From Halolamina pelagica (GTDB lineage: Archaea; Halobacteriota; Halobacteria; Halobacteriales; Haloferacaceae): DNA of 64,000 bases. Shown here piece after piece: positions 5,986-25,306 of this stretch. The position numbers were made by a program, and so were the translations under genes. Every line of letters begins with the position of its first letter. The first letter of the stretch is position 1. The notes beneath the pieces are model-generated. The model saw nothing but the letters and a program-made list of their open reading frames with translations. It searched no databases and was not told the DNA's origin. Location: positions 1,612,001 through 1,676,000 of the forward strand of contig NZ_LGUC01000001.1 of the NCBI RefSeq assembly GCF_001307315.1, read 5' to 3'.

Positions 5986-6030
5986 ACCGCAACCGAGGCG
6001 GCTCGCGGGGAAAGCCCTGACGGGCACCGG

Positions 6031-7664
6031 TTACTTTCCGGAGAGGTAGTCGCTGGCCTGCGGCTCAGCGGGGTCGGTCGGCACCTCGACCAGCCGGGGC
6101 TCGTCCGCCTCGACGGCGTCGGCGACGGCCTCGCGCACCTCCTCGGGCGTGGCCGCCCGGGTCGCGGCGACGCCCATCGACTCCGCGAGCGCGACGAAGT
6201 CGATGGGGGCGTCGCCCCACGCGTAGGAGCCCGGCGGGAGACCGTGGTCGCGCTCGGCGCCGTCGCTGATGATCGCGTAGTCCTCGTTCCGGAAGACGAC
6301 GGTCGTCACGGGGAGCGATTCGGCCGCGGCGGTGTGGAGTTCGTGGATCGCCATCATCAGCCCGCCGTCGCCGGCGAGCGCGACCACGTCGCTGTCGGGG
6401 TTGGCGGCCTGTGCTCCCAGCGCCGACGGGAGGCCGCTCCCCATCGTCGCCCACGAGCCGGGGTTGACGTAGGATCGCGGCCCATCGCGGGGAACGTCGC
6501 GAGCGCCCAGATCCGGAAGCCGCCGGCGTCGGCGGCGACGATCGCGTCGTCGGGGGTCGCCGCACGGACGGCCCGCAGGGCGCCGGGCGAGGAAAGCGGC
6601 AGATCGCCGTCGACGAGGTCGTCGACGCGCCGGGCCACCGACTCCCGGAGTCGGTCGGCGACCGCCGCCGCGTCGTGATCGGAGACCGGCAGCTTGCCGT
6701 TCAGCGCCGCGAGCGTTGGCTTGGCGTCGGCGACGATGCCGACGGCGGGGTCGTAGTTCGTCCCCAGATCGTCGGGCGAGAGCGTGACGTGGATCAGCTC
6801 CCCCGGGATCTCCAGGCTCCGCCCGCGGGTGACGAGCTCGTCGAAGTCCGTGCCGACGGCGAGCACCGCGTCCGCTTCTGCGACGTACTCGTGGATCTCC
6901 GGCGTGGTCGCGCCACAGAGCACGCCCGCCGAGAGCGGGTGGGTCTCCGGGAGCACCCCTTTCCCCTTGTACGTCGTCAGCACCGGGGCGTCGTAGCGCT
7001 CGGCGAACTCCCGGAGCTCCTCGCTCGCGTTCGCGCTCCGAACCCCGCCGCCGGCGACGATCGCGGGGGCGTCAGCATCGGCGAGGGTCTTGGCCGCGTC
7101 GGCGACGGTGTCGGCCGGCGGGCGGACTGGCTCGTCGGAGCCGGCGTCGCCGACGCCGCCGTTCGGCGTCGCCGCCGGGAGGTACGACTTCGGGATGCCG
7201 AGCCGGACCGGCCCCTTCGGCGCGGTCGTCGCCGTCTCCACGGCGCGTTCGACCGCCGCGAGGACGCCCTCGGGGTTCTTCACCACTCGGTTGGCTTTGG
7301 TGACGGTGTCGTACGTCTCCGGCGGCGTCTCGTGGATGCCGTCGCGGCCCCGAACCTCGGGGTCGGTCTCGACGGCGATGTGGACCAGCGGCGTGTTGTC
7401 GTTGTAGGCGTTCTTCAGCCCGTTCATCGCGTTCATGTCGCCCGGGCCCGGGACGACGACGGTCGCGGCGGGCCGCCCGGAGGTCTCGGCGTACCCCCAC
7501 GCCTGCTGGGAGACCGCGGTCTCGTGGCGGGCCATCACGAACCGTACGTCGTCGCGGCCGTCGATGGCCTCGTTCAGCGGCAGCGTCTGCTTGCCCGGAA
7601 TCCCGAACACGGTGTCGATCCCGTTGGCGACGAGTCGGTCGATAACGGACGCGGCGAGAGTCAT
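6031..7664 (-). CDS. thiamine-diphosphate-dependent enzyme, acetolactate synthase/decarboxylase family (one frame break)
   Basis: The joined protein is about 544 residues, the normal length for this family. The N-terminal pyrophosphate-binding domain starts VIDRLVANGIDTVFGIPG and holds the catalytic glutamate in MARHETAVSQQAWGYAE. The central domain follows at about residues 190-330. The C-terminal ThDP-binding motif begins ALAGDGGLMMAIHELHTAA and continues to the RNEDY segment. The frame breaks near 6472-6476, between MGRD and YVNPGSWATMG; one base restores it. The start at 7664 fits a protein beginning MTLAASVIDRLV. A true acetolactate synthase would usually have a small regulatory subunit next to it; none is here, so the substrate is open (acetolactate, benzoylformate or another 2-oxo acid). 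Confidence 0.8.
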
Positions 7665-7755
7665 GGTTGGTGTGGCACACGGCGGGGGAAAACTGTATCT
7701 CACTCCGTACGCTCGTCGGAACGGTCGACGAAATACGACAGCCGGGGGTCCGGCC

Positions 7756-8448
7756 TCAGTCGGTGATGGTCACGCCGCCGAAGGCCGCAAAGCCGCTGAC
7801 GACCAGGTCCACGTCCTCGTTCCGGTGTTCGGCGCGGGCGCGGTCGTCGGAGGCGCCGCCGAGGACGGGCAATACGTCCAGTCGGACGTTCCACTCGCGG
7901 GGGACCACCACATCGACGCCGCCGAACAGGGCGACGGCGTTGACCTGGGCGGGGCGGTCGGCGATCGCGGCGTCCCGTAGGTCGAGTTCCGTGCCGCCGA
8001 AGATCGCGGTCAGGTCGCCGCCGGTGAACTGGGTCGAGGTGTTGCGCTTCTCGACGCCGCCGAAGGCCACAAAGGAGTTCGTGTAGTCGTCGTTCGTCTC
8101 CCGCACCGCCGAGCGGTACTGGCCCAGCAGCACCGAGAGGCCGAAGACGATGACTAACACGGGCCAGAACGCGACGACGTCGTCGACGGTTGTGTAGTCG
8201 AGCACGACCAGTTGCCACGCCCCGGCGACGCCGATCAGCACGACGGGGCCGACGAGGTTCCGGAGCCGGCTCTGTAGCAGCGACCACACGCCGACGAGGA
8301 CGAACAACGACGGGACGTACAGCAGTGCGTCCCTGGTGGAGACAACGCCGGTCGTCTCGAGGAGGAGCAACACCCCCGTCAGGACGATGATACCGCCGAA
8401 GAGGAGCTGCCCGGTCGGGACGCGTCGTGAGCGATTCGAGGAGGCCAT
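7756..8448 (-). CDS. LiaF-like membrane protein
   Basis: The protein is 230 residues. The N-terminal half holds about four membrane segments, including GQLLFGGIIVLTGVLLLLE. The soluble C-terminal half has the repeated turns typical of LiaF/YvqF C-terminal domains: SFVAFGGVEKRN, LTAIFGGTELDLRDA, AVALFGGVDVVVP and GFAAFGGVTI. In Bacillus, LiaF dampens an envelope-stress response; no LiaRS pair is nearby, so the role here is unknown. The ATG at 8448 is chosen because it starts directly before the basic stretch NRSRRVPTG that leads the first membrane segment. Confidence 0.75.
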   Translation of the reverse strand: MASSNRSRRVPTGQLLFGGIIVLTGVLLLLETTGVVSTRDALLYVPSLFVLVGVWSLLQSRLRNLVGPVVLIGVAGAWQLVVLDYTTVDDVVAFWPVLVIVFGLSVLLGQYRSAVRETNDDYTNSFVAFGGVEKRNTSTQFTGGDLTAIFGGTELDLRDAAIADRPAQVNAVALFGGVDVVVPREWNVRLDVLPVLGGASDDRARAEHRNEDVDLVVSGFAAFGGVTITD

Positions 8449-8610
8449 ACGTGAGAGTACGGCAGGTGACACGATAAAGCAGTACGCTGTTCCCCGGCGG
8501 GCGGGACCGACGGGAAGCGAACGGCAGCGCGTTTTTCGCCCGCTCGATCGCTCACGACCCGGATAGTTCCGGGGACCACGACGGCCTGACGGATCAGGTG
8601 ACGAAGCCGA

Positions 8611-9456
8611 TTACTGGTTCCACGCGGCGCCGTCCGGGTCGATCAGGCGGCGCTCCTCGTCGATCCCGTCGATGGTGGCGACGTCTTCCTCGGTCAGGTC
8701 GAGTTCGGTGGCCTCCACGTTCGCCCGGATGTGCTCGGGATCGGTCGACTGCGGGATCGGCACCAGCGCCTCCTTCTCGACGGCCCACGCGATACAGACC
8801 GCGGCGGCCGTGGTGTCGTGGCGCTCGGCCACCTCCTGGATTTCGGGCGTGTCGAAGATCTCGCCCTGGCCGAGCGGGCAGTAGCCGACGACGGTGTGGC
8901 CGTGTTCGGCGGCGTACGCCCGGAGTTCGTCCTGCGGGAACAGGGGGTGACACTCCACCTGGTGGGCGGCGATGTCGGCGTCGAGGATCTCTCGGGCCTC
9001 GTCGAGCAGCTCCGGCGTGAAGTTCGACACCCCGACGTTGCGGGCGACACCCTCGTCGTGGAGCTCCTGCAGCGCGCGCAGGCTCTCCTCGGGGTCGTAG
9101 GCACCGGTCGGCCAGTGGACGTACAGCAGATCCACCGCGTCGACGCCGAGGCGGTCGAGGCTCTCGTAGCTGGTCCGCTTTGCGTCCTCGTAGCCGAGGT
9201 TGTCGGGGAGGATCTTGCTCGCCAGCACCACGTCCTCGCGGTCGCCGGACTGCGTCCGGCTGCCAGAGGGACTACGTCCCTCGCTGTCCACGTCCGAGAG
9301 GCGGAGTCCCGCGCCGACTGCGGGCTCGTTGTCGTACATCTGTGCGGTGTCGACGAACCGGTAGCCGGCGTCGAGGGCGGTCCGCGTCGCGTCGGCGCAG
9401 TCGTGGCCTTTCGCGCCGGACGTGCCGAACCCGATGTCGGGAAGGTCGAGACTCAT
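8611..9456 (-). CDS. aldo/keto reductase with an in-frame insert
   Basis: This 281-residue NADPH-dependent reductase has the family tetrad in order: aspartate and tyrosine in GYRFVDTAQMYDNEPAVG, lysine in VVLASKILPDN, and histidine in DLLYVHWPTG. The cofactor region includes NVGVSNFTPELL and the C-terminal VPIPQSTDPEHI. Between residues of about 70 and 85 it carries an extra 15-residue segment (EGRSPSGSRTQSGD) that the related gene at 26614 lacks. The segment is encoded by two back-to-back hairpins at 9244-9282. The ATG at 9456 starts the protein at the first strand. The substrate is unknown. Confidence 0.85.
   Translation of the reverse strand: MSLDLPDIGFGTSGAKGHDCADATRTALDAGYRFVDTAQMYDNEPAVGAGLRLSDVDSEGRSPSGSRTQSGDREDVVLASKILPDNLGYEDAKRTSYESLDRLGVDAVDLLYVHWPTGAYDPEESLRALQELHDEGVARNVGVSNFTPELLDEAREILDADIAAHQVECHPLFPQDELRAYAAEHGHTVVGYCPLGQGEIFDTPEIQEVAERHDTTAAAVCIAWAVEKEALVPIPQSTDPEHIRANVEATELDLTEEDVATIDGIDEERRLIDPDGAAWNQ
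9244..9282. repeat. two tandem perfect palindromes inside a coding sequence
   Basis: GCCGGAC and GTCCGGC (9244-9250 and 9254-9260) pair perfectly over 7 bases around a 3-base loop. After 5 bases, GAGGGAC and GTCCCTC (9266-9272 and 9276-9282) do the same, again with a 3-base loop. Together they encode the extra segment in the aldo/keto reductase. The insert keeps the reading frame. The form suggests a small palindromic repeat element that has entered a gene. Confidence 0.6.
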
Positions 9457-9592
9457 AGCTGTAGCAGGTGCGTCGTGTTCCCGGCGTAAAGAACTCCGCT
9501 TCCCGGCGGTTTTACTGGCGTCTCCCACCCTGTCCACCGAGCCGACACCCCCGGGCGTACTGCTAAGGGCGAAGCGGGCCAATGTGTTGGGT

Positions 9593-10206
9593 ATGGTCCC
9601 CGATCCCCGAACGACGAGCCGCATCCTCGCCGCACTCGCCGTGGCGGCTGCCGTCCTCGCTTCGGTCGTCCTGTTGACCCCCGGCCCCTCGCCGACGCGT
9701 TCTTCGCGGGGATCGTGCTCCTGAGCCCGCTGTTCGCCGCCGTCGGCGCCGTCGGCGCGTGGACGAACCGGTCGCCGGTGGTGTGGGTCGCCGCGCTGCT
9801 GTCAGCTGTGCTCTCGGTAGCGGGGATGCTGTCGATCGGCCTGTTTCTCGCCCCGGTAACGTTGTTGCTCCTCGGCGCCGCCGTCGCCGCACAGGTGGCT
9901 GCCCCAGGCGCTGGCGCCCGGGAGGCGATCCTCGCTGGGGCACCGAGTCGACCTGAGCGATTGCTGCGGGCCGCGGGCGGACTGGCGAGCGTCGCCGTCG
10001 GCGTCGCGCTCGTCGACGCCGGCGCGTTCGACCGTGAGCTGTTCGGCTCCTGTGCACAGGAGACGCTCGCCTGCGCGCTCGGAACGACGAACTGGCTCGC
10101 AGTCGGGCTGACGCTGCTCGGGTTCGGCGCCGTCGCCGCGGGCGCGTGGCTCGTCTGGAAACAGGTGTACGTCTCCCGAGTGCTCCGGACGACGCGAGCC
10201 GGCTAA
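9593..10206 (+). CDS. multi-pass membrane protein of unknown function (one frame break)
   Basis: The joined protein is about 204 residues with roughly five or six membrane segments, the first being ILAALAVAAAVLASVVLL. The frame breaks at the C run 9685-9688; one C restores a continuous membrane helix pair through LADAFFAGIVLLSPL. A cysteine pair (GSCAQETLACALG) sits in a loop near residue 155, possibly outside the membrane. No family is recognised. It converges with the cytidine deaminase gene, separated by 4 bases. Confidence 0.6.
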
Positions 10207-10210
10207 CGCC

Positions 10211-10699
10211 TCACCACGGCCGAATCGGGAGCAGCGCTTCGGCCCGAACCGTTCGGAGCGCGCCGTCGCCGTCACCAGCGTCGGACTGCTCGGTGGCAGT
10301 CGAGAGCTCGTGGCTCCCGTCGACGGGGACGACCACGCGCATCTCGGGGTTGTAGTCCGCGAGGAGTTCTCGACAGACGCCACAGGGCGGGATCGGGCGC
10401 GCATCGTCGGCGTCATGCTCCGGCATCGGGTACGCCACCGCGACGCAGGCCTCGATGTCGTCGTGGCTGTGACCGTCCGCGATCGCCGCGCTCACCGCGC
10501 CCGGTTCGGCACAGGTCGACGCTCGCCCGATGCTCGCCGGGAGGCTCACGCCGTCGTACACCGCGCCGTCGGCGGTACGGACGCTCGCGGCGACGATGTG
10601 GGCGCCGTCGAAGAACTCGGCGTCGAAGGTCTCGCGGTTCAGGTCGGTCGCGTGGTCGAGGAGGGCGTCGTCGGCGTCGGTAAGCGGAGACGTGTCCAT
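10211..10699 (-). CDS. cdd: cytidine deaminase
   Basis: This 162-residue protein has the zinc-binding deaminase signature. The first part is CAEPGAVSAA, giving the zinc ligand cysteine and the catalytic glutamate. The second is PPCGVCREL, giving the PCxxC pair of zinc ligands. It removes ammonia from cytidine or deoxycytidine in pyrimidine salvage. The ATG at 10699 is preferred to a GTG two codons earlier. An acidic linker near the C-terminus (SDAGDGDG) is typical of haloarchaeal versions. The gatA stop lies 36 bases upstream, on the same strand. Confidence 0.85.
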   Translation of the reverse strand: MDTSPLTDADDALLDHATDLNRETFDAEFFDGAHIVAASVRTADGAVYDGVSLPASIGRASTCAEPGAVSAAIADGHSHDDIEACVAVAYPMPEHDADDARPIPPCGVCRELLADYNPEMRVVVPVDGSHELSTATEQSDAGDGDGALRTVRAEALLPIRPW

Positions 10700-10735
10700 A
10701 CCCACCGGGCCGGGGCTGTCGGTAAGTGCTTTCCC

Positions 10736-12034
10736 CTACTCCAGTGCGCTCGCGGCGCGGACGATGGTCTCCTCGCCGTACTTCGGGCCGATGAACTGCA
10801 GCCCCACCGGCAGGCCGTCGGCCTCGCCGGCGGGCACCGAGATCGCGGGCAGGTCCGCGAGGTTCACGGGCACCGTGTTGGCGTCGGCGAGATACATCGT
10901 CCGCGGGTCCTCGAGCCCCTCGCCCAGTTCGAACGGCGGGACGGGCATCGTCGGCGACGCGAGCACGTCGGCCGCTTGCAGCGACTCGTCGAAGTCCTGC
11001 TTGATCCACGCTCGGGCGTCCTGGGCCTTCCCGTAGTAGCGATCGTGGTAGCCCGCCGAGAGCGCGAACGTGCCGAGCAGGATCCGACGTTTGACCTCGG
11101 GGCCGAACCCTTCCTCGCGGGCGGTCGCGAACGCCTCGTTCCAGTTGCCCGCCTCCGAGAGGTCGTCGTAGTCGCCGGCCTCGACGGCGTTGAGGCCGTA
11201 GCGCGTCCCGTCGAAGCGTGCGAGGTTCGAGGAGGCCTCCGACATCGCGATCACGTAGTACGCCGCGACCGCTTTCTCGACGGAGGGCATCGACACTTCG
11301 ACGTACTCGGCGCCCTGAGCCTCCAAGTCCTCGATGGCGTCCCAGAACGTCTCGACGACGCCCTCGTCGGCGCCGTCGAGCAGCTCCTCCGGGACTCCGA
11401 TCGTCATCCCCTCCACGTCGCCGTCCGCCGCGGCCGCGTAGTTCGAGTCGTCGCCCGCCTCGACCGTCGTCGCGTCGCGGGGGTCGGAGCCGGCGATCAC
11501 GTCGAGCAGGCCCGCCGCCTCCTCGACCGTCTGGGCGATCGGGCCGATCTGTTCCAGCGAGTTGGCGTAGGCGACGAGCCCGTAGCGGCTCACGAGCCCG
11601 TAGGTGGGCTTGATGCCGACGACGCCACAGAACGCGGCGGGTGCGCGGACCGAGCCGCCGGTGTCGCTCCCCAGCGCGAGGTCGGCCTCGCCGGCCGCGA
11701 CGGCTGCCGCGGAGCCCCCTGAGGAGCCGCCCGGGACGCGGTCGGTGTCGGCCGGGTTCAGGGTTGCACCGAAGTGGGAGGTCTCGGTCGTCGTCCCCAT
11801 CCCGAACTCGTCCATGTTCGCCTTCCCGTTGATCGTCGCGCCGGCCGCTTTGAGGCGCTCGACGACGGTCGCGTCGTACGGCGGGACGTACCCCTCGAGC
11901 ATCTTCGACCCGCAGGTGGTCTCGACGCCCTCGGTGGAGATGTTGTCCTTGACCGCGACGGTTTTGCCCGCGAGCGGGCCGTCGTCGGCGCCGTCGATAC
12001 GCGCTTTGGTGATGTAGGCGTTGAACTCGGCCAT
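10736..12034 (-). CDS. gatA: Asp/Glu-tRNA amidotransferase subunit A
   Basis: The protein is 432 residues and is an amidase-signature enzyme. The catalytic Lys-cisSer-Ser triad is visible: lysine in TVAVKDNIST, then PGGSSGGSAAAVAAG, then LGSDTGGSVRAPAAFCG. GatA frees ammonia from glutamine so that GatB can amidate misacylated Asp- or Glu-tRNA. Its start codon abuts the gatC stop with no spacer, so the two are translated together. gatB is not in the window. The frame is intact. Confidence 0.95.
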   Translation of the reverse strand: MAEFNAYITKARIDGADDGPLAGKTVAVKDNISTEGVETTCGSKMLEGYVPPYDATVVERLKAAGATINGKANMDEFGMGTTTETSHFGATLNPADTDRVPGGSSGGSAAAVAAGEADLALGSDTGGSVRAPAAFCGVVGIKPTYGLVSRYGLVAYANSLEQIGPIAQTVEEAAGLLDVIAGSDPRDATTVEAGDDSNYAAAADGDVEGMTIGVPEELLDGADEGVVETFWDAIEDLEAQGAEYVEVSMPSVEKAVAAYYVIAMSEASSNLARFDGTRYGLNAVEAGDYDDLSEAGNWNEAFATAREEGFGPEVKRRILLGTFALSAGYHDRYYGKAQDARAWIKQDFDESLQAADVLASPTMPVPPFELGEGLEDPRTMYLADANTVPVNLADLPAISVPAGEADGLPVGLQFIGPKYGEETIVRAASALE

Positions 12035-12322
12035 CTACGACACCCGGGGCCCTTTGAAGTAGCCGTCCTCGGTCTCGCTCGCGTTGCTGAGGGCTTCCTC
12101 CTGCGTGAGGCCCGCCTCGACCTCGTCGGCGCGCATCACGTTCACGAGATCGGGCTCGCTCTCGATCTCGGGCACCTCGTCGAGCGTCTCGAAGTCCGCG
12201 AGCACCGCCTCGAACTGCTCGGCGAACGTCTCGACCTCTTCGTCGTTCAGATCCACCCGCGCGAGGTCCGCGACGTTCCGGACCTCCTCGCCGGTGACCG
12301 CCGGCTCGTCTCCGTCGCTCAT
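12035..12322 (-). CDS. gatC: Asp/Glu-tRNA amidotransferase subunit C
   Basis: This 95-residue acidic protein shows the GatC pattern: an N-terminal helix VRNVADLARVDLNDEEVE, a second helix FAEQFEAVLADFETLDEV, and a C-terminal part with NVMRADEVEAGLTQEEAL. GatC clamps GatA and GatB together. It sits directly upstream of gatA with no intervening bases. The remaining 153 bases up to the acyl-CoA dehydrogenase gene (12323-12475) hold no gene. Confidence 0.92.
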   Translation of the reverse strand: MSDGDEPAVTGEEVRNVADLARVDLNDEEVETFAEQFEAVLADFETLDEVPEIESEPDLVNVMRADEVEAGLTQEEALSNASETEDGYFKGPRVS

Positions 12323-18775: not shown

Positions 18776-20075
18776 TCACCCCCTTGGACTGTCGGCCGAC
18801 GACTCGTCGGTGAGATCGGACTCCGTTGGCGCCCCGTCCCCCCGTCCTGGGCGCCGGTGTCGTCGGCGCGGCCGTCGTCGGTGCCGTCGATAGCCTCGTT
18901 CGCAGCCGACCCGCCGTTCGTCGACGGTCCGTTCTCGTCGGGGAGGGAGACGCCCGCCACGTCGGCCAACACGCCGCCGTCCCCGGACTCGTTCGCATCG
19001 TCGCCGATCGATTCGCGTGCGAGCCGCGGCGGCTCGTACACGAGCGCCACCTCTTCGCTGAGCGCGTAGAACCGACCCGAGCCCGGATCCTCGATGACGC
19101 CGGTTCCGGCGTCGATGGCGAAATCGACCACGTCCTCGAGCGACGCCGCCTCCGCGCGTGTCCGCCCGTCGAACGTCGGCGAGAGCCGGGCACGGACGAC
19201 CCACTCGTCGAACTCCGCGCGGTCGTCCTGAAACGCCAGCAGGTCGCGCTCCGCCTCGGAGAGGCTGAACGCCTCCCGCCGCCGACCGACAGCCAGCCCC
19301 GCGAGCCCCGCGGCGCCCACGAGGAACAGCAGCGGACCGCCGAGCGACCAGAACGGACCGTACTCCCGGGGAGTGCTAACGGTCGTGGTCGTCGTCATCG
19401 GTTGGCTCCCCGCCGTTTCCGGGCCGACAGTGTACGAACCGCCGCCGATGCTCACTGGGAGCCGATGCGTGAACGAGAGATCCGCCGACCCCCCGTCGAC
19501 GGCGCTCGCGACCGTCACGTCGACCGCCACGAACGTCGATATCTCGCCCTGGGTGTCCCCCAGCGCCGACTGGATCTCCGCCCGACGGTCGGCCACCTCG
19601 GTGGCGTTCAGCGTGAAGTCGACTGTCGCCGACTCGCCGGCCGCAAGCGAGTCTACCTGCGTCGAGTCGAGCGGCGTGCGATCGGTCCAGTAAACCCCCT
19701 CCTCCCCGCTCGACTGGACCACCAGCGACGCGTTCAGCCCCACCGTCGCCGATGCCGCGTCCCGACCCATGTACGTCAGCACGTACTCGCCGTCGAGCTC
19801 CGGCGACACGCCGGTGTAGTACGTCGACCGATTCGAGAGGGTCGACCCGACTGGGAAGATCGGGTTCTCGCGGGTCACGTCGGCAGTGTGGTAGAAGCTG
19901 CCGTCGGCCGTCCAGTGCGTCCGCTCGACCTGCTCGGTCGTTTCTCCCGGATCCACGTGGGCAGTGTAGGCAGCAGCACCCCCACGAGCACGAGGGCGAT
20001 CAGTACCGCTGCGAGCACAGCGAACCACGACCCCACGATCGCCCGCCCCCGAAGTTTGCTCCTCCCCTGAGTCAT
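18776..20075 (-). CDS. DUF5305-family membrane protein (two frame breaks)
   Basis: Joined, the protein is about 433 residues. It has an N-terminal membrane segment (GSWFAVLAAVLIALVLVGV) and an extracellular beta-rich region starting AAYTAHVDPGETTEQVERT. A second membrane segment, FWSLGGPLLFLVGAAGLAGL, is followed by a cytoplasmic domain with ERDLLAFQDDRAEFDEWVVR and an acidic tail. This is the layout of haloarchaeal DUF5305 proteins. Breaks at the runs 19979-19983 and 18838-18843 are each fixed by one base; the second restores a stop at 18776. It is the last gene of a minus-strand run with the signal peptidase, rhomboid and surface-protein genes, so a role in surface-protein export or assembly is inferred. 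Confidence 0.72.
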
Positions 20076-20130
20076 GGATTTGATTGTGGGATGACGTTAC
20101 ATAGGACTATTGGTCAGCCGACAAGACTGT

Positions 20131-21293
20131 TCACCGCGTGAGATAGCGAAGGAGTCGACGCCACGTCGATCGATTGTGGCGGGAGCTCCGGTTACGGACC
20201 CGCACGCGGCGGCCGCCGAGCAGGACGAGCCCCAGCAGCGCGACGCCGCCAGCCAGGCCGGCATCGATGGCCAAGATCGGGAGCCACGGGTGGACGTCGT
20301 ACAGCGTGTCGATCACCGGCATCGGGAGGAGCGCGAGATAGCGGTGTTCGGTCACGAACCGACGGTAGTAGCCGGTCTCCGGCGGCGCCGACAGCGTCAT
20401 CTCGACTGTGGCCTCGCTCCGGCCACCCACGCGGACGCGTTCCGGCTCGATCGCGACGCCGTCGCTCCCTGGCTCGACGTAGGCCACGACGGGCACCAAC
20501 CCCGCGTTTGGCACGGTGTAGGGGAGCGTCGTCGACTCCCCCTGCTGGATCACGGTCGGGTTCTCGGACGCGAACTCCGCGCTCACGACGCCGAACTGTT
20601 GGGTGCCGGCTGGCACCACCATCGCAGCCGTGGCCGCCGCGACGAGCATCCCGGCCAGGAGGAGAACCACGAGCGCGGGGGAGAGCCCCTGATCCCGGCT
20701 GCGATCACGGTCGCGATCCCGCTCTCGCCCATCGTTGGCGACGAGATCGTAGAGGTACAGCAGCGCCGAGAGCCCGAGCAGGAGGTACGCGAGCCCCTGT
20801 GTCCCCAGTAGCGCCCGGGAGCCCGTCAGCACGGCGAGCCGCTGTTGGACTGCCGAGAAGGCCCCTGGAGCCCAGTGACCAGCGTGCCGAGGTTGGGGAT
20901 CACCACGACGCTGCCGCCGATCTGGAGCGCCTCCGCGACGATCTGTCCCTCCTTCACCGGTGGCTCGTTGCCGTCCTGATCGGTGAAGGGGTTGGCGTCC
21001 CCTCGCGTGATGTACCCCCGTTCTGTTTCGCCGACGACACGGTGGGTCGTCAACCCTCCTCCCTGCAGCTCCTCCGCCCGGAAAACGATCACGTCGCCCT
21101 CTTCGACGTCGCCAGTGACGGCGGCGGGGACGGCGACGAAGCCGTCACCCGGTTCGAGCGTCGGCTCCATACTCCCCGTCTCAACGTAGCCGAGCAACAC
21201 GGGCGTGCCGAGCACCTGGCCGAGCAACAGCGACGCGACCACGAGCACGAGCGCCGCTTCGGCGCCGAGCGTCAGGAGTCGGCGGGGAGTCAT
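20131..21293 (-). CDS. signal peptidase I, archaeal Sec11/SipW type, with C-terminal membrane domain (one frame break)
   Basis: The joined protein is about 387 residues. The catalytic part shows the Ser-His-Asp arrangement of Sec11/SipW enzymes: serine 41 in VETGSMEPTLEPGD, histidine 84 in LTTHRVVGE, and aspartate 99 in ITRGDANPF. After one G is restored at 20862-20865, it continues through FSAVQQRLAVLTGSRALLGT into a second part with about four membrane segments and an extracellular stretch. Signal peptidases cut signal peptides on the outer face of the membrane. This one lies in a run with surface-protein genes and probably serves them. Confidence 0.82.
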
Positions 21294-21314
21294 TCAGTCA
21301 GTCGAAGGGTTGTG

Positions 21315-22155
21315 TCAGTCTGACAAAAACCCTCGGTCGGCGCCGTCGTCGACGACGCCCGCCACGACCGCGCTGTAGGGACGATGAACCCCAGACAGAA
21401 GCCGAGCAGGTGCACGTAGACGTTTACGACGCCGCCGTCTGCCGTCACCGTGCTGAAGCCGACGTACTGGTACCCCAGCAGCGCGACCGCACCGAGCACG
21501 CCGGCGTCGAGCCACCCGGCCTGCACGTTCACGGGGGGTTGCCCCGCGGCGATCGGTGGGCCGCGATCACGTAGAGCGCAGCTAACACGGCGCTCGCGAC
21601 GGCCACGCCGCGGGCCGCACCGTCGGGGAGCGCGACGAGCGATATCGTCACGATCACTGCGAAGAAGAGCGCCGGCGCGTCCCGGACGCGGATCCGGCCG
21701 TCGAGTCGGGCCCCGTAAGCCACGAGGACCAGCGCGAGGAGCCCCGAGAACGCCATATTCACCCCTGAAAGTCCGTACCCGACGGCGTCGCGGGGCACCG
21801 CGAGGTTCAGCACCGACAGCACGGGGGGAAACGCCACCAGGAACGTCGCGGCGGTGACCCCGAACAGCCGCCGATGCCCCGCGAGCCCGGCGAGCACGTA
21901 CGCGAACCCGGCCACGAGCACGTAGCCGAGCAGGTTCGCGGCGAGGTGGCTGGCCTCGAAGTGGACGACGTGTGCAGTGTAGGCAGTGAGTAGCGACGGG
22001 TCCCGGTAGACGAACGCTAGCGACTCCCGGCGCCCGATCGGGAGCGCGAACGTGGCAAGTGCCAGGGCGGGTACTACCGACAGCGCGAGACAGTCCCGGA
22101 GTCGGACGGCGTCCCGCAGCGCCGCCGTAAACGACCTATCGCCCGGCCGAACCAT
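21315..22155 (-). CDS. rhomboid-family intramembrane serine protease (two frame breaks)
   Basis: Joined, the protein is about 281 residues with six or more membrane segments. Rhomboid landmarks are VVHFEASHLAANLLGYVLVA, the catalytic serine motif GYGLSGVNMAFSG (serine at residue 130), and a histidine in a late helix (VYVHLLGFCLGF). Serine plus histidine form the rhomboid dyad, so the protein should be active. Breaks at 21533-21538 and 21378-21380 are each fixed by one base; the second gives the natural end DDGADRGFLSD. It lies 21 bases from the signal peptidase gene and 47 bases from the surface-protein gene, on the same strand. Confidence 0.72.
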
Positions 22156-22202
22156 GTGTACCCGAACGATCTAACCTGTCAAAAGCGTACCTGCTCGGCT
22201 GG

Positions 22203-23687
22203 TCACGGCCCCGGCGTGCGGCGGGCGAGTACCAGCACCATCGCGAGGATGGCCAGCAAGCCGACCAGCCCCAGCAGACTCTCCAGCCCGAAGCCACCTG
22301 GTTCCGCTACAGGGGTGTCAGTCGCCGAGGCCGTCGACGGTGGCGCAGTCGTTTCGGTCACCGTTGCTGTCTGTGGCGTGTCCTCGGCGACGACGGTGAA
22401 GCTGCCCGTCTCGACGCCGTCGACGCTGACGGTGTACTCCCCGGTCTCGTTCCGCACGACGGGGACGGTAACGGTCTCCGTCGCGCCGGGCGCCACCTCG
22501 ACTGTTCGGGTTGCGGCGATTTCGTCGTTCACTCGCACCGTGAGGGTGCGGTTCCCAGCGAGTGTGCCGTTGTTCGACACCGACGCCGTCACCGTGACGC
22601 GCTCGCCGGGTGCGACTGTCGTCGCGGAGAGATCGGCGTCGCTGAGGGCGAGCTGGGGATGCTTGACCGCAACGACGAACGTCGAGAACCCGGGTGTTTC
22701 GGCCTCGAACGTCAGCCGGTTGTCCCGCTCGCCGGTCGCCGTCGTGTCGAGTTCGGTGAGGGAGCCGTCTGCGTACCGATAGACGGCGAGGTTCGCCATC
22801 TCGACCTCCCGTTCCGCTACGAACGACTTCGCGGCGCTGAACTCCATCGTCGCACCCGAGATCGTGCCGCTGTCGACGGTCATCTGGACCGCGCCCAACG
22901 GCTCCGCGCCGGCGTCGACGACGACCGACTCGGCCGCACCGACGCCAGAGGTGTCCGCTGTCAGCGAGTAGGACCGGTTTTCGCTCGTCGTCGAGATCCG
23001 GTCTAGTGTGAGTGCCCCGGACGGGTCGAGCGCCAGCCGACTGGCGTTGAACTCGGTCGAGCCGGGGTCGCCGCTAAGCAGGACGAACCGCCGCGAGTGT
23101 TCGGTCGGTGCCGTGACCCGTTTCGCGAAGCCGTCGATCGACGGCGTTTCGCTCGTGTCGGCGGTGTCGGCGCCGCCAGTGTTGCCGCCGCCGGTGTCGG
23201 CGGCGACCGTCTCGGGCTCGGCCACCAAGGAGTGGATCGTGATGTCGTCGACGAACCCGTCGGCGCGGCCGGTCGTGTCGACCGTGAGCGAGACGGCGAC
23301 CGACTCGTTGGGCGCGAGGGTGACGTTGTTCGCCTCGGACTGGATCGGCTGGCCGTCGACGGCGAACGTCACGGCGTCGGAGCCGTGTGTCAGCCAGACG
23401 TGTGCGTACTGGGAGCCGTCGTACCGGATACGAAACACGTCCTGAATGGTCGTCCGTCCGTCGGCGTTGACGCCCTCGGCATCGAGATCGGGGTTGGTCG
23501 GCGAGAGGTCGACCACCAGTTCGTCGTCGGCATCGAGATACGCGTAGTCGCTGCTCGGTGCGAGCTCGATTTCGTCCCCGATCTGGTCCGTGGGTCCGGC
23601 GAACAGCGAGGCCGCTGTCGACGGGAACGCGAAGCTCCCCGCGACGACGAGCGTGAGGGCGAGCGCAATCGTTCGGCGGTTAGTCAC
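22203..23687 (-). CDS. large secreted surface protein with PGF-pre-PGF-like and CARDB-like domains
   Basis: The protein is 494 residues with an intact frame. A signal peptide (RTIALALTLVVAGSFAFPST) is followed by a beta-rich domain with DYAYLDADDELVVDLS, similar to haloarchaeal DUF1102 proteins. A PGF-pre-PGF-like part with NLAVYRYADGSLTELDTTAT and AETPGFSTFVVAV follows. Next comes a CARDB-like domain around ATTVAPGERVTVTASVSNNG, a Ser/Thr/Pro-rich stretch likely to be glycosylated, and a C-terminal PGGFG, membrane segment and RR. That end resembles archaeosortase (PGF-CTERM) sorting signals. It should sit on the cell surface. It leads the minus-strand run with rhomboid, signal peptidase and DUF5305. 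Confidence 0.75.
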   Translation of the reverse strand: MTNRRTIALALTLVVAGSFAFPSTAASLFAGPTDQIGDEIELAPSSDYAYLDADDELVVDLSPTNPDLDAEGVNADGRTTIQDVFRIRYDGSQYAHVWLTHGSDAVTFAVDGQPIQSEANNVTLAPNESVAVSLTVDTTGRADGFVDDITIHSLVAEPETVAADTGGGNTGGADTADTSETPSIDGFAKRVTAPTEHSRRFVLLSGDPGSTEFNASRLALDPSGALTLDRISTTSENRSYSLTADTSGVGAAESVVVDAGAEPLGAVQMTVDSGTISGATMEFSAAKSFVAEREVEMANLAVYRYADGSLTELDTTATGERDNRLTFEAETPGFSTFVVAVKHPQLALSDADLSATTVAPGERVTVTASVSNNGTLAGNRTLTVRVNDEIAATRTVEVAPGATETVTVPVVRNETGEYTVSVDGVETGSFTVVAEDTPQTATVTETTAPPSTASATDTPVAEPGGFGLESLLGLVGLLAILAMVLVLARRTPGP

Positions 23688-24125
23688 TTGGGGGTCACCT
23701 GTTTAGCGCCGTATCGCCTCCTCGGAGGGCGAACGTACTCCTCAATTACTAGGCATATACCGTAGTATTGGTACTGCTGAACTGGTTCAGGGAGTGCTTG
23801 TACCGGCGATCACCCGTATTTGGTGATGGTAGCAACGTCCATCCGCACGCTCGTCGACGCTGAAACAGTTCCCAGCGTCGACAGGTGACTGACGCACGTC
23901 TGACGTTGTATGTGTGTCCCAACGCCGAAAACAATCCCGGCCGAGTCTATGGGTTTTGCTCCCAAGGTGTATTAGTATCACATTACGATACAAGATACGA
24001 AAGTAGAAATATGCAGTTCAGGGGCTTCTTGATGCTATTTCACGTGATTTCGTTACTAATGAATACCCTACCTATCTTCTAAACTATACCTAGTGTTTAT
24101 GTGGCACTAAACTAACACTCTATAT
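23688..24125. other. 438-base divergent intergenic region with two hairpins and an AT-rich promoter side
   Basis: No convincing gene is seen; short open frames at 23749-23934 and 23787-23993 have no family features. At 23853-23862 and 23873-23882 a perfect 10-base inverted repeat, GTCGACGCTG/CAGCGTCGAC, encloses 10 bases. A second pair, ATCACC/GGTGAT, lies at 23809-23814 and 23822-23827. The right half (23940-24125) is strongly AT-rich. TTTAT at 24096-24100 is placed 26-30 bases before the GTG at 24126, as for a leaderless transcript. The hairpins could be an operator, a terminator, or the remains of a mobile element. Confidence 0.5.
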
Positions 24126-24743
24126 GTGTCATCCTCAACTCAGAGTCGGCAAAATGGGGAGGTTGCCGGCGAGGTGGGCTCGGGGCCGATCAACGGGGAG
24201 TCCCCGAACATCTCGGACGACGAGCTGTTCGAGGTGCTCTCGAACCGCCGTCGCCGGTACACTGTCCACGCCTTGGAGGAAACGAACGGCGCCGCAGAGA
24301 TCGGCGACGTCGCGGAGCAGGTCGCCGCCTGGGAGTACGACGTCGACGTAGAGGAGGTGTCCTACGAGGAGCGCAAGCGCGTGTACACGGCGCTCCAGCA
24401 GTCGCATCTCCCGATGATGGACGACGCGGGTATCGTGAAGTTCAACAAGGACCGAGGGTTGGTCGAGCCGACGGAGTCGCTGAACGACATCGAGGTGTAC
24501 ATGGAGGTCGTGCAGGGCAACGAGATCCCCTGGAGCGTCTACTACCTCGGGCTCTCAGGCGTCGCCGCCACGCTCACGGCGGCGGTCTGGCTCGACGCCT
24601 GGCCGTTCGCGATCTTCCCTGACGTTGCGTGGATGACGGCGCTCACCGCGATGTTCGCCGTCTCTGCAGTCGCGCACACGTACTACGCACGCGGCCAGCG
24701 TATCGGCGAGACGGACAAACCACCCGAACTCAGGCAAGAATGA
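24126..24743 (+). CDS. DUF7344-type winged-helix regulator with C-terminal membrane segments
   Basis: The protein is 205 residues. Residues of about 30-120 form a winged helix: DDELFEVLSNRRRRYTVHAL, then ALQQSHLPMMDDAGIVKFNK. Two membrane segments follow, around YYLGLSGVAATLTAAVWLDA and VAWMTALTAMFAVSAVAHTY. The start is GTG 24126; no ATG fits the N-terminus. Its stop overlaps the next start in an ATGA, so the regulator and the secreted protein are translated together. It likely controls this surface island from the membrane. It belongs to the same family as the frame-broken regulator at 2171. Confidence 0.78.
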   Translation: MSSSTQSRQNGEVAGEVGSGPINGESPNISDDELFEVLSNRRRRYTVHALEETNGAAEIGDVAEQVAAWEYDVDVEEVSYEERKRVYTALQQSHLPMMDDAGIVKFNKDRGLVEPTESLNDIEVYMEVVQGNEIPWSVYYLGLSGVAATLTAAVWLDAWPFAIFPDVAWMTALTAMFAVSAVAHTYYARGQRIGETDKPPELRQE

Positions 24744-25306
24744 ACTACCAGCGCGCGGTCAGTGTGCTGCTCGCGGTAACGGCAGCGTCGATGCTCGTCA
24801 CGGGGAGCTTCGGCTTCACCAGCGTCAGCGCCGACCGCGGCGTCTCGGTCGCCGTCGTCGACTCCGAGAACGCGTACGTTGGTGTCTCCGTCTGCGAGAA
24901 GGACAACGGTAACGAGAACGGCGCGAACCCGGTGAAGGTCACCGTCACCAACCAGTTCTCCGAACAGTTTACCGTCGACAGGATCAGTTGGAGCGACTCC
25001 GCCCATCCGAACAAGTCCGCGTTAAATCCCGAGGTAACGCTAGATTCGGGCGATTCACACACGTTCAACAACGCCTTCGGTGACCAGGTGGTAACTGTCG
25101 AGGTGTCCGACGGGCTGGAGGCGACCGTGAACGCGGAGGTTCAGGATCGCTCGACCTGCAAGACGAATGGAGTTGGTGGCGAGGCCCATGCGGACGGCGA
25201 TAAACAAGGTAAGGAAAAGACGGAGACGCCGGAACCTGACGAGGAAAAGACAGAGACGCCGGAACCTGACGAGGAAAAGACAGAGACGCCGGAACCTGAC
25301 GACTGA
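24740..25306 (+). CDS. secreted protein with TasA/SipW-type signal and acidic repeat tail
   Basis: This 188-residue protein begins with a signal peptide, SVLLAVTAASMLVTGSFGFT, and continues SVSADRGVSVAVVDSENAYV, the start pattern of haloarchaeal SipW-dependent secreted proteins. The middle is a beta sandwich with two cysteines (VCEKDN and STCKTN), which may form a disulfide. The tail has three copies of a 10-residue unit containing KTETPEPD. It is coupled to the winged-helix gene by a 4-base overlap. It may be a matrix or fibre subunit processed by the signal peptidase at 20131; that link is inference. Confidence 0.7.
   Translation: MNYQRAVSVLLAVTAASMLVTGSFGFTSVSADRGVSVAVVDSENAYVGVSVCEKDNGNENGANPVKVTVTNQFSEQFTVDRISWSDSAHPNKSALNPEVTLDSGDSHTFNNAFGDQVVTVEVSDGLEATVNAEVQDRSTCKTNGVGGEAHADGDKQGKEKTETPEPDEEKTETPEPDEEKTETPEPDD
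25211..25300 (+). repeat. three tandem 30-base units coding a Pro/Glu/Thr-rich tail
   Basis: Units at 25211-25240, 25241-25270 and 25271-25300 are nearly identical. They differ only at the first bases of unit 1 and one A/G position. Each codes ten residues containing ETPEPD. Such short in-frame repeats change copy number easily, so tail length may vary between strains. Confidence 0.85.

Follow-up and report, generated by a model that had tools for sequence, protein, structure and literature searches.

Related fibre and sorting systems

In Bacillus subtilis, the tapA-sipW-tasA operon places SipW, a dedicated signal peptidase of the endoplasmic reticulum (ER) type, beside the secreted fibre subunit TasA, which has a Phe residue at P2', just after the cleavage point (PMC9674648 and PMC10269814, as far as the available portions of each go). 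In TasA fibres, an N-terminal strand that includes F29 acts as a donor strand, and the archaeal bundling pili (AbpA) of Pyrobaculum calidifontis are a TasA-related archaeal fibre, according to the available portions of PMC9674648. We describe here a surface-protein island at positions 18776 to 25306 of a 64,000-nucleotide stretch of DNA from Halolamina pelagica, which we call the window (1,612,001-1,676,000 of contig 1, in a 2.97 Mb genome of 3 contigs that is rated 79.9% complete). The island is real and conserved across haloarchaea, and it is probably a locus for making and anchoring fimbriae of the TasA/Taf type, in which a rhomboid protease would process the anchor.

The island resembles the B. 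subtilis operon in that an ER-type peptidase adjoins a putative fibre protein. Unlike that operon, it has no TasA-family sequence among its listed matches, its peptidase carries an extra membrane/beta half, and genes for DUF5305, DUF7344 and rhomboid proteins are added. AbpA also differs, being absent from the sequence and fold matches listed for the island. Likeness is found to an archaeal pilin of known structure (PDB 9p0a, 'Pilin') and to the NCBIfam models TafA, TafC, TafE and TafF. Subunits encoded in operons of this type belong to the same family as 9p0a, and the Taf models weakly match the small secreted protein that we name TasL and relatives, but the island proteins do not reach the curated cut-offs. 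No work naming Taf proteins of this kind is among the literature matches listed.

Two known systems of C-terminal sorting are also pertinent. In the GlyGly-CTERM/rhombosortase system of Proteobacteria, the tail consists of a motif, a helix and a basic end, and the enzyme and its single target can be encoded by adjacent genes (PMC3237569, available in part). This logic fits the layout of the island, where a rhomboid gene adjoins a gene whose product ends in a motif, a membrane helix and basic residues. However, the island rhomboid lies far under the rhombosortase cut-off, the tail is unmatched by the GlyGly-CTERM model, and the host is an archaeon. The PGF-CTERM/ArtA system is a haloarchaeal one with a sorting tail of similar layout, and the island protein has a PGF-pre-PGF domain. 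Its tail is nevertheless unmatched by the PGF-CTERM model, and the adjacent enzyme is a rhomboid, whereas ArtA is encoded elsewhere. No archaeal rhombosortase is described among the literature matches listed, as far as their available text goes. Although the fimbria-type locus is known in kind, we have not seen the pairing of rhomboid and tail described.

Organization of the island

On the minus strand, in order of transcription, lie genes for an anchored DUF1102/PGF-pre-PGF/CARDB protein, a rhomboid, a signal peptidase and a DUF5305 protein. Across a gap of 438 bases, a DUF7344 protein and then TasL are encoded on the plus strand. The features are as follows.

18776..20075, minus strand: DUF5305 membrane protein; start at about 20075 in another frame, frame break at about 19978-19984
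20131..21293, minus strand: S26 (Sec11/SipW-like) signal peptidase; catalytic half at 20826-21293, C-terminal membrane/beta half at 20131-20832
21290..22155, minus strand: rhomboid protease; frame breaks at about 21533 and 21380, catalytic His out of frame
22203..23687, minus strand: anchored surface protein; signal peptide, pilin-like domain (about residues 1-160), PGF-pre-PGF, CARDB, linker and C-terminal membrane helix
22206..22304, minus strand: tail of the anchored protein, 33 residues; E-P-G-G-F-G, hydrophobic helix, basic end
23688..24125, no strand: divergent intergenic region, 438 bases
24126..24743, plus strand: DUF7344 regulator
24740..25306, plus strand: TasL, small secreted protein; TasA-like secretion end, Ig-like sandwich, acidic repeat tail
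25212..25302, plus strand: 30-base repeat in three copies, encoding the acidic tail of TasL

An earlier sequence-only reading had proposed the six families, their strands and the divergent gap, and family scores and gene coordinates bear them out. DUF5305 (PF17231, 165.6 bits against a gathering cut-off of 29) and DUF7344 (PF24035, 104.2 against 27.8) are far above their thresholds. In the anchored protein, the PGF_pre_PGF (45.1 against 28) and CARDB (27.8 against 22.7) domains are also above threshold, and DUF1102 (PF06510) is marginal at 22.6 bits against 22.2. The rhomboid fragment of the window stays under its family cut-off (16.2 against 22.6 bits). We take the DUF7344 protein to be of winged-helix type with two membrane helices. 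Several gene extents given in the sequence-only reading had to be revised, although the families stand. The peptidase gene it placed at 20826-21293 covers the N-terminal half only, the C-terminal half having been missed. Its rhomboid, 21529-22155, is missing the end that carries the catalytic His, which is encoded in another frame at about 21290-21532. DUF5305 starts in a different frame from the one assumed, and its C-terminal end is uncertain, as the open frame extends to 18607.

Conservation of the locus

Loci from related genomes were collected in two samples centred on the peptidase. The first held 60 family loci from 59 genomes and used single-sequence searches; these detected DUF5305 (55 loci), DUF7344 (48), the anchored protein (34), TasL (32) and the rhomboid (28). 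The second consisted of named loci, the best 80 of 160 in a genome scan, and used profile searches. Twelve of these with less than 4 kb upstream were left out, giving 68 loci, and one more was dropped for counts of gene order, giving 67 that were all selected by presence of the peptidase.

The core order, in which TasL and DUF7344 are divergent from one or more TasA-like genes, the peptidase and DUF5305, is found in 55 of the 67 loci, and in 32 of them together with the rhomboid. A rhomboid upstream on the peptidase strand is present in 37. Absence of conservation, which the sequence-only reading had named as grounds for abandoning the cluster, is thus not what these genomes show. The C-terminal half of the peptidase is present in 86 of 119 family genomes, and the genome of the window has one peptidase with this half. 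At two loci (L213 and L214), the rhomboid, anchored protein, TasL, DUF7344 and DUF5305 occur together while the peptidase is encoded elsewhere (L089 and L092).

Besides the anchored protein, one to four TasA-like genes lie in the peptidase operon in 47 of the 67 loci, and none in the other 20, which include both Halolamina loci. In the genome of the window, five TasA-like genes are located at 638.6-643.8 kb, about 1 Mb from the island, without such a peptidase beside them. Given this distant array and the 20 loci lacking such genes, the suggestion that the island is a self-contained system is doubtful in this species.

The rhomboid and its partner tail

The sequence-only reading had mentioned the rhomboid as an addition to a SipW/TasA-type arrangement; it is indeed present, and turns out to be the most informative part of the island. 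Its residues S147 (the Ser of GxSG) and H266 (the His of the sixth transmembrane helix) are invariant among 17 relatives. An anchored protein, defined as a DUF1102-family protein with a membrane helix and a basic end, occurs in 37 of the 38 named loci with a rhomboid and in 5 of the 30 without one. For the motif-bearing tail, the counts are 37/38 versus 1/30, and the sole rhomboid locus without a tailed protein (L159) has unread letters in the corresponding frame. The tail pattern behind these numbers was set after looking, with basic end residues required and the motif broadened; the first pattern gave 31/38 versus 1/30, and any membrane tail gave 37/38 versus 7/30. When genus states are collapsed, the counts are 13/1 versus 4/18 (Fisher value 1.5e-5, which overstates the association because there are few independent pairs on the peptidase tree). 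In Salinibaculum sp. KK48, the rhomboid and the anchored protein are found together on the opposite strand.

Elsewhere, rhomboids of the same subfamily adjoin different large surface proteins whose tails carry E-[PQ]-x-G-F. These partners comprise a protein with VWD and trypsin-like domains (L216), one with Ig-like repeats (L218) and one with CARDB, PKD and beta helix (L222). In a control comparison, a motif-tailed surface protein was found at 6 of 12 subfamily rhomboid loci. No acidic motif-tailed frame was found at seven loci of distant rhomboids (L226-L232), and an eighth (L225) has PGF-type tails. There are 39 motif-tailed frames in the 1.48 Mb of the 80 named loci, and most of them seem, by eye, to be anchored proteins themselves. 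When the H. pelagica genome was searched with the C-terminal 45 residues, no further copy of the tail was found.

A further sample consisted of 44 rhomboid-centred loci, which partly overlap the sample used for the tail counts above and in which some genomes recur; in a set of 32 rhomboid-centred loci, 18 also contain the peptidase. A DUF1102-profile neighbour lies within 600 bases in 28 of the 44, and at least 3 of these neighbours are untailed.

Several observations weigh against a strict match between rhomboid and tail. The other 16 of the 44 rhomboids have no DUF1102-profile neighbour; at L264-L266, the DUF1102 protein next to the rhomboid has no membrane tail; and at L276 and L278, the rhomboid adjoins tails that lack the motif. 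A tail pattern settled in advance of a sample of rhomboid-centred loci turned up near 9 of 33 rhomboids, and this pattern had itself been written after tails had been seen. The peptidase tree yields five supported independent pairs, of which 2.9 change the same way, 2.1 show no difference and 0 are opposite (p 0.25). In addition, the rhombosortase model matches 3 of 7 distant control rhomboids (0.003-0.019), and ArtA, which is encoded elsewhere in the genome and whose larger piece scores above its cut-off, could process the tail. Overall, the rhomboid appears to be matched to a tail on a putative fibre-anchoring protein.

All 17 aligned rhomboids match the rhombosortase model (TIGR03902) at E up to 0.1, the best at 1.4e-6, and three subfamily rhomboids beside giant proteins match at 9.1e-6, 0.012 and 0.016. 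None of the 17 reaches the cut-off of 84 bits (the Halolamina rubra rhomboid scores 22.6), 3 of them are also matched by the GlpG model, and the match says little because distant control rhomboids share it faintly. The rhomboid of the window may still work like a rhombosortase, though under that family's cut-off. The GlyGly-CTERM model (TIGR03501) is absent from the matches listed for 10 tails, the window tail included, at E up to 10, and a GlyGly-CTERM protease model (TIGR03867) matches a single anchored protein among 24, at 0.79.

We tentatively propose, as a possibility that we hold at somewhat short of an even chance, that haloarchaea have a rhomboid-based form of C-terminal sorting separate from archaeosortase, in which a rhombosortase-like rhomboid would process E-P-x-G-F tails, being dedicated to a pilin-domain anchor in the fimbria locus and to giant adhesin-like proteins elsewhere. 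A rather doubtful alternative is that ArtA processes the tail as a variant of PGF-CTERM and that the rhomboid has another substrate. ArtA is present, 19 anchored proteins out of 24 have a PGF-pre-PGF domain (E up to 1), and the rhomboid neighbour at one locus (L284) has a plain PGF tail. However, the PGF-CTERM model (TIGR04126) is not among the matches listed for the window tail or, at E up to 1, for any of the 24. The PGF-type surface protein of the sequence-only reading does have a PGF-pre-PGF domain. Among nine rhomboid-linked tails, the model matches one, at E 1.4, compared with 1.9e-4 for the PGF tail at L225, in a search whose filters drop most weak matches. Moreover, the rhomboid and the tailed protein stay paired at L213 and L214, where no peptidase was found adjacent. 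If rhomboid-based sorting is correct, surface-protein anchoring in haloarchaea uses two unrelated enzymes with similar-looking tails, and the pairing proposes a substrate for a haloarchaeal rhomboid. To our knowledge, the substrates of archaeal rhomboids are largely unknown.

Relation to archaeal pilins

A profile built from 18 operon-type subunits matches 9p0a across its length (3.7e-28) and also finds both window proteins, at 7.7e-11 and 4.4e-8. In profile comparisons, the anchored protein over residues 1-160 (99.5%, 2.7e-22) and TasL (99.4%, 3e-21) are linked to this subunit/pilin family. A TasL profile matches 9p0a at 7.6e-10 over the secretion end only; neither window sequence alone, nor the anchored-protein profile, matches it.

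Predicted structures are less specific. The AlphaFold model of TasL (mean predicted local distance difference test score, pLDDT, 71.6) has a sandwich at residues 47-133 and low confidence at 30-40; it is a generic Ig-like sandwich whose best fold matches are unrelated. The model of the anchored protein (mean pLDDT 82.6) has beta domains and a terminal helix at 468-490, and its clear fold match is CARDB, a domain that filled the match list. Counting against a TasA-type fibre, neither TasA nor AbpA is among the matches listed for either model. The TasA/camelysin Pfam family is likewise missing from the matches listed for the window proteins at E up to 1 and for the 18 operon-type subunits at E up to 0.01. 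A TasA fold is unproven for TasL, which has its secretion end in common with the TasA-like family. For the TasA-like protein that the sequence-only reading saw at 24740-25306, the secretion end is supported and the TasA family assignment is not. In the structural comparison with TasA and AbpA that it proposed, neither was among the fold matches listed; the domain of 22203-23687 relates by profile to a solved archaeal pilin.

Matches of the NCBIfam models TafA, TafC, TafE and TafF to proteins of these loci all stay under the curated cut-offs: TasL scores 34 of 410 bits with TafC, and TafE reaches at best 73.1 of 155 bits among seven relatives scanned. TafF matches 9 of 24 anchored proteins, the best at 3.2e-16 and that of the window not among them. 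The TafF scan gave no match in the H. pelagica genome or in the controls, a result that does not establish absence.

It is unlikely that the locus instead exports surface proteins that form no fibres, the peptidase serving as a second signal peptidase for general use and the anchored protein being an ordinary cell-surface protein. The unspecific TasL model, the CARDB match, the Taf scores below cut-off and the 20 loci without a further TasA-like operon gene would all be expected on that account, but it fits poorly with the match of operon-type subunits to a solved archaeal pilin, with their presence in 47 of 67 loci and with the retention of the core order.

Signal peptidase and secretion signals

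The peptidase exceeds the cut-off of the archaeal signal peptidase I model (sigpep_I_arch, TIGR02228; 61.7 bits versus 51.85), and it matches the SipW model at 1.9e-8, but with 34.1 of 190 bits. S41, H84, D99 and D105 are invariant among 17 relatives, which fits an ER-type Ser-His peptidase. These sequence features support the Sec11/SipW-like assignment, which the sequence-only reading had also made.

Many TasA-like subunits have a G-[AGS]-F segment at the signal end, reminiscent of the Phe at P2' in Bacillus TasA. A secretion-end pattern, chosen after looking, fits 184 of 399 TasA-like matches, leaving 215 that do not fit, and 162 of the 184 have Phe in the corresponding place. Cleavage at a later V-x-A-like site is equally possible.

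Proposed function

The fimbria reading draws on gene order, homologies, conserved catalytic residues and the co-occurrence of rhomboid and tail, and we infer the following mechanism from protein families and gene order. The DUF7344 protein would control the divergent promoters. The Sec11/SipW-like peptidase would remove the signal peptides of TasA-like subunits, and its extra C-terminal membrane/beta module might serve, with DUF5305, as a membrane platform. Subunits would then polymerise, probably via donor-strand exchange. The majority of the subunit genes of H. pelagica are located away from the island, five in the array at a distance of about 1 Mb. With its pilin-like domain, long stalk and C-terminal helix, the 22203-23687 protein could be a membrane-held base or cap. 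The adjacent rhomboid may cut the E-P-G-G-F tail, either releasing the fibre or handing it to another anchor, as a bacterial rhombosortase does.

This proposal would join DUF5305, DUF7344 and DUF1102, mostly annotated as of 'unknown function', into one fimbria locus of many haloarchaea. If it holds, the rhomboid in the locus would couple fibre assembly to controlled anchoring or release.

Frame breaks in the window assembly

The genes for the peptidase, rhomboid and DUF5305 are each broken by single-base deletions in the window and intact in sister species. For example, the peptidase is a single protein of 387 residues in H. rubra, compared with two overlapping frames in the window. When the window DNA was aligned to four sister-genus loci, single-base deletions were located near 19978-19984, 20863-20865 and 21378-21381 relative to all four, and near 21533-21536 relative to two, the other two being blurred by bigger gaps. 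Each of the four deletions sits at a homopolymer run, three to six bases long, and one of the distant TasA-like subunit genes of the same genome is also frame-split.

If real, the frameshifts would mean three dead genes in this strain, which would tell against a working locus here, but they are most likely sequencing errors. That the island is decaying, with the three genes as pseudogenes, is suggested by four deletions inside about 1.6 kb while the sister genes are intact, but is quite improbable given their position at runs of equal bases, breaks of the same kind elsewhere (a gatA-like gene, artA and the distant subunit gene) and the low completeness rating of an assembly in so few contigs.

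Additional observations

Relative to all four sister-genus loci, a single-base insertion occurs at 12035, outside the island and not in a run of equal bases. It is another likely assembly error, and the gene that carries it is presumably gatA (glutamyl-tRNA amidotransferase subunit A). The gene for the archaeosortase ArtA (C1:1371888-1372705) is split into two adjacent frames.

The five distant TasA-like genes lie on one strand (5989-11852 of locus L205, which is 632000-650000 of the H. pelagica genome), and a peptidase of this type is absent from these 18 kb. One member of the array is a fusion of 825 residues whose C-terminal part is beta-helix-like by eye, and another is frame-split. Two further TasA-like genes are found in this genome at C1:289421-290614.

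Near the peptidases of L089 and L092, which belong to two genomes of one genus, none of the remaining island genes was found. The C-terminal half of the peptidase also occurs outside the taxonomic order of the window, with weak matches in a family of small genomes (1.2e-9 to 2.0e-15) and a match in a further single genome (2.0e-20). Finally, the tails of TasL differ in sister species at the site of the 30-base repeats.

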